Position numbers and translations under genes: made by a program
Assembly (NCBI RefSeq): GCF_015775515.1
Contig: NZ_CP065383.1
Coordinates: 2,728,001 to 2,792,000 of the forward strand
DNA: 64,000 nucleotides
Reading direction: 5' to 3'
DNA from: Atribacter laminatus
Lineage (GTDB): Bacteria; Atribacterota; Atribacteria; Atribacterales; Atribacteraceae
Notes under the pieces: model-generated
Database searches by the model: none
What the model was told of the DNA's origin: nothing
The model's input: only the letters and a program-made list of their open reading frames with translations
In this document: positions 1,334 through 24,570 of the stretch, piece after piece
Position numbering within the stretch: position 1 is the stretch's first letter
Layout of the letters: each line of letters starts with the position of its first letter

Positions 1334-4703
<3,370 letters not shown>

Positions 4704-20490: not shown

Positions 20491-22321
20491 AACCACTCGA
20501 AATTCCCTTCAGGAATTACCTACCAGTTGTGGTGTATATATTCTATGCAATCAAAGTCACCAAATAATTTATATTGGGAAAGCTATTCATATTCAAAACC
20601 GGGTACGAAACCATTTGCAAGGTGATTCTTCATCCCTTCTCAAGAGAGACATGGCTAAAGAAATTCATACTATTCAGTTCATCCTCACCAGAGACGAAGC
20701 CGAAGCTCTCCTTCTCGAAGAAGAGCTAATTAAAACTTACCAACCCCAATACAACATCCGAATGAAAGATGATAAAAGTTACCCCTATATTCATTTTGAT
20801 TTTCGAGGCGATTTTCCAGCGGTTAAAATAGCCCGTCGCAAAACGGCGAAACCGGGATACTTTTATGGACCCTACACCAATTCAAAAAAAGCTCGTGACG
20901 GATTGAAAATTCTCCGGCAAATTTTTCTCCTTCGTGGTTGCTCAATTCCTGAATCTCGTTTTCCCTTGTTACGCTCCTGTCTCGATTACGAATTAAAACT
21001 GTGTTGTGCTCCATGTATTGGAAAATGCAGTTCTTCAGAATATCAAGATAAACTGAATAAAGCTCGTTTATTTTTAGAAGGAGACTATTTAGAGGTTACT
21101 AACTGGTTAGAGGAGGAAATGTGGGATGCCGCCGACCGGCAGGATTTTGAAAAAGCCGCTCAATTCCGAGATCATCTCGACTGTTTGCTTAAAATTATCG
21201 GACGGTATCGATTGGTCCTTCCTGATGGTTCAGATATTGATTTTATTGAATTGGAAAGTGAATCCAATCTGGCCAGTTTAGTTGTCGTCAAGGTGAGAAA
21301 AGGAAGGTTGATTGGAATCGAAAATTTTCACGCTCAAAGGGAGGAAAACGCTGATCGAGACTATATTCTCAATGAATTCATTGAGAATTTTTATCTTGAC
21401 CACTTCAATCCACCAACGAAAATATGTGTCCAATTTGATTTTAACCATAATCTCCAGGAAAGGATTAAAGAAAAAGGGCATCTAAGTATTGTTGATTTAC
21501 CCAGAAATTCTTCTGAGCTTGATCTTCTTCATTTTGCCCAAGAAAACGCCCAAAAAAATCTCCAATTAGAAAAAATAAAAGCGCTTCGTCAAAATATGGA
21601 TCATCAGCATATTCTAAATGAATTAAAAGCTCTTCTTTCACTTCCTGCCTTACCTCGTCTCATTGAAGGGGTGGATATTTCAACCTTTCAGGGTGATGAA
21701 TCGGTAGGAGCCATCGTTGCTTTTTTCGATGGTGTACCATTAAAAAAAAGATATCGGAAATATATCATCCGAGAAACCGATCATCCCGATGATTTTGCCA
21801 TGATTGAGGAAACTCTTACCCGGCATTTTAATAAACTTATTCAAAACCAAACTGAATTTCCCAACCTTTTGGTCATTGATGGGGGTATTGGCCAGCTGAA
21901 CAGCGCGCTCAAAGTATTACATAATTTTTCTCTCACTATTCCCGTTCTTGCTTTAGCAAAAGAAAATGAAGAAATTTTCCTCCCTAAAAAAAGTGCCTCG
22001 CTTCGTCTTCCTCCCGAAAATTCTTCTCTCCAATTCCTCCAAAGAATTCGGAATGAAGTGCATCGATTTGTCATCACCTTTCATCGAGTGAGAAGAAATA
22101 AAAATATGTTTTCCTCTGTTTTAGACGATATACCGGGAATTGGTCCCAAACGAAAACATGTCCTCCTTTCAGCCTTTGACAATCTGACTCAAATTTTAGA
22201 TTATTCCCCCCAAGAGGTATCTCATCAATTAAAAATACCCACCCAAAGCATTATCGAAATTCAAAAAAAACTCAGTCAAAAAAATATATCAACCATGAAA
22301 GAGGGAATTGTTTCTTCATGA
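20462..22321 (+). CDS. uvrC: Excinuclease ABC subunit C
   Basis: UvrC makes both incisions around a lesion. The TTG start at 20462 has GGGAGG about 8 bases upstream and overlaps the end of uvrA by 29 bases, suggesting coupled translation. The 619-residue protein has an N-terminal GIY-YIG nuclease (CGVYIL...IIYIGKA), a cysteine cluster (CSIP...[17 protein letters not shown]) and a UVR motif around [20 protein letters not shown]. An RNase H-like second nuclease ([28 protein letters not shown]) and a helix-hairpin-helix tail ([18 protein letters not shown]) follow. All modules are complete. It ends in ATGA, overlapping whiA. Confidence 0.97.
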
Positions 22322-23226
22322 ATTTTAAAGAAAGTCTTAGAACCGAACTGTTTACCATCCAACCGCCAAACAAAGAGGAGGTTGAGAGTGAATTTGTCGG
22401 AATAATTAGGACTGGCGCAGTGATAAAAAAGCATTCCCATCAGCTTCTTTTACATTTTTCCAACCGCCATCCGGCTTTGATTAAAAAATGTGTCACTTAT
22501 AAAAAAATTCTTTTCCCTCGCTCAGTTCACACTATTCACGTACAAGAGAGGAGGGGAATTCCCGGAGGAATATTTTACTGTTTCGAATTTCCCGTCACCA
22601 ATGACCTACTCGATCAATTTGGTTTTCAAGATGTAGACATCCTCAGGAGCTTTTTCAACCATAAATTAGCAGCCCATTTTTTAAGAGGAGTATTCGAATC
22701 TCGTGGTTATATGGGCGATCCCTTAAGAGGATATCACATAGAAATACAGCTCAATTCAGAAAAGCTTGCCAATTTCATACTCAATTATCTCCAAAGTCTC
22801 CAGTTTGACTTTCATTCTCGTACAGTCAAAGGAGATGTTAATCTTTATATAAAAAATTCTCAATCGATAGCTGATTTTATCCGCTTTCTTGGAGCCCATC
22901 AAAGTTACCTCGAAATGGAAAAAATTATGGTTGAAAAATCGACTATTAACGAAATTACCCGTTGGGTAAATTATGAAACTGCTAATTTAAATAAAATTGT
23001 TGCCTCTTCTTCACGACAAAGAAAAAAAATTCACAGTCTTGATTTTGATGACCTTCCTCTCCATCTTCAAGAAATTGCCAGATTACGTATAGAAAATCCC
23101 TGTTCCTCTTTACGTGAAATCGGTGACCTTTGCATCCCACCGCTTTCTAAATCAGAGGTTCATCGCCGATTAAATGAAATTGAAAAAATTGCCGATAAAA
23201 AAGGGTTTACAGAAAACCAGACTTGA
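22318..23226 (+). CDS. whiA: WhiA-family DNA-binding protein
   Basis: WhiA proteins combine a degenerate LAGLIDADG-type N-terminal domain with a C-terminal helix-turn-helix. They act as sporulation/division regulators in Gram-positive bacteria, and their role elsewhere is unclear. The 302-residue protein begins [11 protein letters not shown], contains the conserved AHFLRGVFESRGYMGDP and NFILNYLQSL segments, and ends with an HTH around SLREIGDLCIPPLSKSEVHRRLNEIEKIA. Its ATG overlaps the uvrC stop (ATGA). In Firmicutes whiA usually follows rapZ and yvcK. Here it follows uvrC with neither, so co-expression with excision repair is the notable context. Confidence 0.9.
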   Translation: MNFKESLRTELFTIQPPNKEEVESEFVGIIRTGAVIKKHSHQLLLHFSNRHPALIKKCVTYKKILFPRSVHTIHVQERRGIPGGIFYCFEFPVTNDLLDQFGFQDVDILRSFFNHKLAAHFLRGVFESRGYMGDPLRGYHIEIQLNSEKLANFILNYLQSLQFDFHSRTVKGDVNLYIKNSQSIADFIRFLGAHQSYLEMEKIMVEKSTINEITRWVNYETANLNKIVASSSRQRKKIHSLDFDDLPLHLQEIARLRIENPCSSLREIGDLCIPPLSKSEVHRRLNEIEKIADKKGFTENQT

Positions 23227-23251
23227 CTTAAAATATTGGTAGTAATTTATT
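23223..23251 (+). promoter_or_regulatory. Possible promoter for the orphan ABC ATPase
   Basis: TTGACT (23223-23228, five of six bases) overlaps the whiA stop. After 17 bases comes TTTATT (four of six). The -10 match is weak. It would give a leader of about 175 bases before the ATPase gene. A second TATAAA at 23390-23395 has no matching -35 box. Confidence 0.35.
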
Positions 23252-23331
23252 TGAGTAACTAGAACATCGATTTTATTCCGTTAAACTATCGGAGTGATAA
23301 AATTCCAGTTTCATGAGAAATTTGGTTTTAT

Positions 23332-23410
23332 TGAAATCCACCGCCGAGTTCTATGGTTGGGTTTCATGTCGGCCTTTTTCGGAATAGGGTATAAAAAGGC
23401 CTCCCCTATT
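23332..23410 (+). promoter_or_regulatory. Structured leader with overlapping inverted repeats before the ABC ATPase gene
   Basis: Three inverted repeats lie in 79 bases. The first pairs 23332-23340 (TGAAATCCA) with 23358-23366 (TGGGTTTCA), nine pairs with one G-U in RNA. The second is perfect, GGCCTTTTT (23371-23379) with AAAAAGGCC (23393-23401). The third pairs AATAGGG (23383-23389) with CCCTATT (23404-23410). The third interleaves with the second, so the two are alternative or pseudoknot-like. The SD GGAGGA follows about ten bases later. No U tract follows, so this is not a simple terminator. It matches no riboswitch class I know. Confidence 0.5.
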
Positions 23411-23432
23411 AAGATTTGAAGGAGGAATATAG

Positions 23433-24536
23433 ATGGCAAATGTTATTTTAAAAGAAATTGTAAAAAAGTTTGGAGATGTTCTCGCAGTTAATAAAGTAAA
23501 TCTTGAAATTAAAGATCAAGAATTTGTTGTATTGGTTGGCCCTTCTGGTTGTGGAAAAACAACAACTCTCCGTATGATCGCCGGTTTGGAAGAAATCGAT
23601 GCTGGAGAAATTTACATTGGAGATACTTTGGTCAATGATGTTCCCCCCAAAGATCGTGACATCGCAATGGTATTCCAGAATTATGCCTTATATCCTCACA
23701 TGGATGTTTATAACAATATGGCTTTTGGTTTAAAACTTCGAAAATTCCCAAAAAGTGACATCGATCAACGAGTCAAAGAGGCGGCTGAAATTCTCGGTAT
23801 TCAAGAGCTCCTCCAGAGAAAACCAAAGCAACTTTCAGGTGGTCAAAGACAGCGTGTTGCTGTTGGTCGAGCTATCGTTCGGCATCCCAAAGTATTTTTA
23901 TTTGACGAACCTCTCTCCAACTTGGATGCCAAATTAAGAGTTCAAATGAGAGCCGAACTTTCAAAACTACATGATCGATTGAAAACCACTATGATCTATG
24001 TTACTCACGACCAAATTGAAGCCATGACCATGGGTGATCGGATCGTTGTTATGCGTGATGGATTAGTCCAGCAAGTTGGAAGCCCCCTCGAACTATACAA
24101 CAAACCCATCAATAAGTTCGTCGCCGGTTTTATTGGAACTCCGTCAATGAACTTCATCGATGTTGTTTTGAAGAAAGAAGGGGATGGTCTCTATCTCGAC
24201 GGTCAATCTTTCAAGCTCAACATTCCTAATGAGTTTAAAGAAAGCCTGCTTCCTCACCTTAACCAGGAATTGACCCTTGGTATTCGACCCCAAGATCTTT
24301 TTGATAGTGAAGTGAGCAAAGAGTCGGCATCAACTGGATCGACCATAAATACTACCGTTGACGTTGTTGAACCTTTAGGTTCAGAACAAATCATTTACCT
24401 CACCACTGGACCCCATACTTTAGTAGCTGTTCTTGATATGCAAACTCGAACTGGCGTTGGTGATGACCTCAAGATTGCAGTTGATACTTCAAAAATGCAT
24501 CTTTTCAAATCAGATACTGAAATAGCAATAATTTAA
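23433..24536 (+). CDS. ABC transporter ATP-binding protein, MalK/UgpC/MsmX type
   Basis: This is the ATPase subunit of a carbohydrate-type (CUT1) importer. The 367-residue protein has Walker A GPSGCGKTT (36-44), Q-loop FQNYALYPHM, signature LSGGQRQR (134-141), Walker B VFLFDEP, H-loop VTHDQIEAMTMGDR, and a C-terminal TOBE regulatory domain from about residue 235. No permease or sugar-binding gene adjoins it. It has its own terminator and a structured leader, so it is a single-gene unit. By analogy with MsmX of Bacillus it may energise several importers, which is inference. ATG 23433 has a strong SD. Confidence 0.93.
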   Translation: MANVILKEIVKKFGDVLAVNKVNLEIKDQEFVVLVGPSGCGKTTTLRMIAGLEEIDAGEIYIGDTLVNDVPPKDRDIAMVFQNYALYPHMDVYNNMAFGLKLRKFPKSDIDQRVKEAAEILGIQELLQRKPKQLSGGQRQRVAVGRAIVRHPKVFLFDEPLSNLDAKLRVQMRAELSKLHDRLKTTMIYVTHDQIEAMTMGDRIVVMRDGLVQQVGSPLELYNKPINKFVAGFIGTPSMNFIDVVLKKEGDGLYLDGQSFKLNIPNEFKESLLPHLNQELTLGIRPQDLFDSEVSKESASTGSTINTTVDVVEPLGSEQIIYLTTGPHTLVAVLDMQTRTGVGDDLKIAVDTSKMHLFKSDTEIAII

Positions 24537-24540
24537 TCCC

Positions 24541-24570
24541 AAAGGCGTGCATTAAGCACGCCTTTTCTTA
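24541..24570 (+). terminator. Rho-independent terminator after the ABC ATPase
   Basis: A perfect 10-bp stem AAAGGCGTGC (24541-24550) and GCACGCCTTT (24556-24565) with a 5-base loop ATTAA runs into TTTTCTTAATT. It begins four bases after the stop codon. This is a textbook intrinsic terminator and isolates the ATPase gene from gapA. Confidence 0.93.

Follow-up and report, generated by a model that had tools for sequence, protein, structure and literature searches.

The leader of an orphan sugar-importer ATPase gene, in the window analysed here (the whole stretch of 64,000 nucleotides), contains two helices that interleave, and the question this raises is whether the leader is an RNA switch or a structured element of another kind. 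An earlier note had described helices a:a' and b:b' in the order a-b-a'-b', with gaps of 3, 3 and 2 bases between the strands and a third helix just upstream. All of these are present (Table 1), a:a' forming hairpin P2 and the third helix being the core of hairpin P1. When 23332-23432 was shuffled 3000 times with its dinucleotide composition preserved, interleaved helices of nine and seven pairs never arose. Of 2556 overlapping tiles of 101 bases drawn from the window, 4 contain them, and these represent two places (the leader and one near 4351). The test was defined post hoc, when the pattern had already been seen. The overall fold of the leader is not unusually stable (z of -1.34 and -0.59 against shuffles).

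Table 1. Features of the leader and its gene, in window positions.
Feature	Position	Strand	Remarks
Promoter, TTTACA-N17-TAAAAT	23206-23234	+	Overlaps the end of whiA; kept in relatives
Hairpin P1	23332-23366 (core arms 23332-23340 / 23358-23366)	+	36 of 36 cells paired, four species; loop variable
Hairpin P2 (helix a:a')	23371-23401: GGCCTTTTT 23371-23379 / AAAAAGGCC 23393-23401	+	Nine Watson-Crick pairs; kept in four species; in G008 a different paired sequence in the same place
Helix b:b'	AATAGGG 23383-23389 / CCCTATT 23404-23410	+	Seven pairs; b is part of the variable P2 loop
Rival fold	23373-23425: CCUUUUUCGG 23373-23382 with UUGAAGGAGG 23416-23425	+	Folding prediction; stacked on b:b'; near-equal energy in this species alone
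Hairpin P3 (predicted)	23402-23426: UCCCCU 23402-23407 with AGG 23420-23422 and GGA 23424-23426	+	Covers the Shine-Dalgarno sequence GGAGG 23421-23425; contains b'
Orphan UgpC/MsmX-type sugar-importer ATPase gene	23433-24536	+	Profile match
Terminator-like hairpin of the ATPase gene	24541-24565	+	Terminator scan; stem -16.0 kcal/mol

The ATPase gene forms a single-gene unit with its own terminator-like hairpin, in agreement with the earlier note, and the gene upstream is WhiA by profile match. The ATPase product passes the profile for the UgpC subfamily (NF008653), scoring 492 bits against a cut-off of 432. The genome encodes 43 matches to SBP_bac_8 against 4 to TOBE_2 and 5 to OB_MalK, which corresponds to about five MalK-type ATPase genes; judged by coordinates, just 2 of the 43 have another MalK-type ATPase gene within 10 kb, and the orphan has no SBP_bac_8 match within 50 kb. 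From these counts, the ATPase is probably common to many sugar importers. It resembles the shared ATPases MsmX and MsmK (PMC7658222), in that an orphan of UgpC type has its gene away from those of the importers it may serve. For those genes no report of a structured leader was encountered, and the words 'leader' and 'untranslated' are absent from the main text of the two MsmX papers searched (PMC5730181 and PMC7658222).

The conserved promoter suggests that the leader is probably transcribed. From its position the transcript start was estimated near 23241, which makes the leader about 192 nt long. RNA-seq has been carried out on Atribacter laminatus RT761 (PMC7736352). Similar promoters, likewise spaced by 17 bases, precede 20 of 20 folded leaders of the order; the search was guided, as the promoter script favoured certain -35 hexamers. 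The same script gives 192 nt for the leader of this species, 189-201 nt for those of its three congeners, 159 nt for that of the sister genus (G008) and 41-69 nt for the remaining 15 of the 20. Among the leaders examined the long form is therefore confined to genus g1 and G008, and the ATPase gene functions without P1 and P2 where the leader is short. The ATPase gene follows the apparent end of whiA in many genomes of the order (22318-24536 in the window), with the conserved promoter over or just past that end, and in some genomes (for example L009 and L011-L013) other sequence lies upstream of it.

Leaders were compared from this species (G000), three other species of the genus (G005, G002 and G001) and the sister genus. 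Two further genomes, G003 and G004, carry the ATPase gene as C-terminal fragments only and gave no significant leader match; they were excluded from all counts. As no close relative was present among the 80 loci of a named genome collection (best identity 66%), no additional leaders were gained from it. Over the 40 arm positions of P1 and P2, G005 has 1 difference from this species and G002 has 0; for fourfold sites of the gene the corresponding figures are 44 of 159 (Fisher p 1.5e-4) and 43 of 151 (Fisher p 9e-6), and for the compared loop positions 12 of 22 and 8 of 22. The arms are thus more conserved than both the loops and the silent sites, as in a conserved structured RNA leader. In length, too, the loops are variable, by 2-4 bases, a variation more in keeping with RNA hairpins than with a DNA operator. 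In G001, a more distant species in which 75 of 149 fourfold sites differ, P1 persists, with U-A in place of a U-G pair, and P2 has seven pairs. The earlier note had looked to relatives for conserved pairing, and for P1 and P2 this was found, with the arms kept in four species.

In G008 the counterpart of P2 is an end-on helix of eight pairs in the same place before TCCCC, in which, relative to this species, both partners differ in four pairs and a single partner in one; at least six end-on pairs arose in 188 of 20000 shuffles of this segment. No clear counterpart of P1 was identified in G008. As no pair has changed on both sides within the genus (four species), the covariation depends on the single branch leading to G008. 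Of the covariation that had been proposed as a check, what was observed is these four double changes in P2, with none for b:b'. Taken at the level of sequence comparison, these data support a leader that is selectively conserved and structured at P1 and P2.

The most likely reading, to which we would give about an even chance, is that this is a cis-acting, lineage-specific leader which tunes the translation or stability of the ATPase mRNA. A leader of about 192 nt would be transcribed from the promoter at the end of whiA, and P1 and P2 would be set against P3, the hairpin predicted between the C tract and the Shine-Dalgarno sequence (SD). The promoter and the arms of P1 and P2 are demonstrably conserved in the alignments. 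The leader would act in cis by setting ribosome access to the start of the ATPase gene (most likely) or the lifetime of the mRNA, with P1 and P2 either holding the P3 region in place or binding a protein or another RNA. Since two conserved hairpins adjoin the ribosome-binding site, translation of the ATPase gene may be regulated, and we infer that translation is the controlled step. For each of the five leaders, the best fold predicted pairs the SD with the C tract (23403-23406 here), and strand b' fits better as part of the predicted P3 than as part of b:b'. It is like known translational leaders in which the last hairpin of a structured 5' region pairs with the SD, and differs from them in that SD closure is not above chance and no alternative fold is conserved. 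Against this reading count the unexceptional closure of the SD, the small set of five sequences with no double change inside the genus, and the 15 of 20 folded leaders of the order that are of the short kind. If regulatory, this leader alone would govern an energy-coupling subunit that many sugar importers share. It is a candidate structured leader without an Rfam match in a little-studied phylum, and the finding is modest as it stands.

Next after this reading, and possible although well short of an even chance, is that P1 and P2 are passive, that is, stable hairpins with no regulatory role that serve to protect the mRNA or to keep upstream sequence away from the SD. Conserved arms with free loops would be expected of such hairpins, as would the lack of a conserved alternative fold, and closure of the SD is at chance level. 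Its opening cost ranks 22nd among 143 sampled genes having an SD (264 kb of genome, with crude gene calling), which is unexceptional. Shuffled leaders were at least as closed in 23% of cases for G000, 23% for G005, 77% for G001, 16% for G002 and 81% for G008, and the 20 leaders of the order taken together gave no clear trend. Selection for strong closure cannot be claimed, as the SD is not more closed than expected. However, conservation extends to the stretch from P2 to the SD, where the C tract is kept across two genera, and pure protection would not require this.

A riboswitch or bistable RNA switch, with a' and the SD region as competing partners of strand a, is improbable, and marginally more so is a lineage-specific switch that would have the 5' strand of P2 pair either within its hairpin or with the SD region. 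Such a switch draws on the rival fold, which in this species is predicted at -27.7 against -29.0 kcal/mol for the main fold (-28.3 against -29.2 kcal/mol for a slightly longer piece) and is predicted to be preferred once the transcript reaches 23425. In G005, G002 and G001, however, the rival fold is worse by 3.3, 5.2 and 6.1 kcal/mol, so that the conserved alternative folds of a riboswitch were not found. Moreover, the SD is closed in both folds, and switching between them would therefore give no evident open state. Helix b:b' is perfect in this species only: 5, 6 and 5 of its 7 pairs are kept in the three relatives within the genus, the changes all falling in b, in the P2 loop, while b' is constant, and AATAGGG is absent from the P2 loop of G008. 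As the relatives break one or two of the seven pairs with no compensatory change, b:b' was rejected as a conserved switch. Of the 'mutually exclusive hairpins' proposed earlier, what holds is that two folds lie within about 1 kcal/mol of each other here, but b:b' is whole in this species alone.

The Rfam search that had been proposed for the leader returned no family at gathering score. Across the whole window the sole match at that score was a tRNA, and at E values up to 10 the region 23200-23470 gave three snoRNA matches, on the opposite strand and below gathering score. No sign of a ligand pocket was seen in the leader. A model (R1) was built from the five leaders, on an alignment in which the fit of G008 is poor at P1 and shifted by one base at P2; the model's matches to these training leaders arise by construction. 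Searching 50 genomes with it (25 of the order being searched again) gave no convincing copy at another gene, and weaker matches in G009, G015, G006 and G016 precede the same ATPase gene and seem to depend on the SD region. A riboswitch leader, as the earlier note had envisaged, is thus undemonstrated. Literature searches found nothing linking Atribacter with riboswitches or describing structured RNA in Atribacterota, and in the paper found for ugpC together with riboswitch and leader, the single mention of ugpC is a table row, the heading of which names E. coli and Synechococcus. Were a switch present, one leader would set the ATPase supply for dozens of sugar importers, throttling sugar uptake overall.

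A pseudoknot containing both helices was also judged unlikely, as b:b' is not conserved and there is a steric objection: two bases are poorly able to cross a nine-pair helix. A transcription attenuator, in which GGTTGGGTTTCATGTCGGCC followed by TTTTT (23355-23379) terminates unless P1 forms, was picked out by the terminator scan and overlaps P1 and P2. It is very unlikely, since its stem is too weak (-4.8, -2.6, -4.8 and -0.8 kcal/mol in four species, against the value for the gene-end terminator in Table 1) and G008 is without the T run. The probability is slighter still for a leader peptide of 17 residues (ATG 23366 to TGA 23417-23419) that couples translation; its frame is open in G000 and G005 and ends just 5' of the SD, but it is frame-shifted in G002, lacks both start and stop at this position in G001 and is four codons long in G008, and it is largely refuted by this lack of conservation. 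Just as slight is that of an RNA thermometer on the SD, which the leader resembles in having a simple hairpin over the SD and differs from in that the SD hardly opens in prediction: from 20 to 55 C the predicted open fraction stays under 0.5% in three of the four species of the genus and under 5% in the fourth. A mobile repeat was dismissed, as the 244-base leader region had a single match in its own genome at E <= 0.001, namely itself.

The second place in the window with interleaved nine- and seven-pair Watson-Crick helices, 4351-4476, lies within the coding sequence of what we take from its sequence to be a DNA-ligase-like protein. It was regarded as chance and is a useful control for findings of this type. 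Within the leader, GTTTCATG is present twice, at 23308-23315 and 23361-23368, 53 bases apart.
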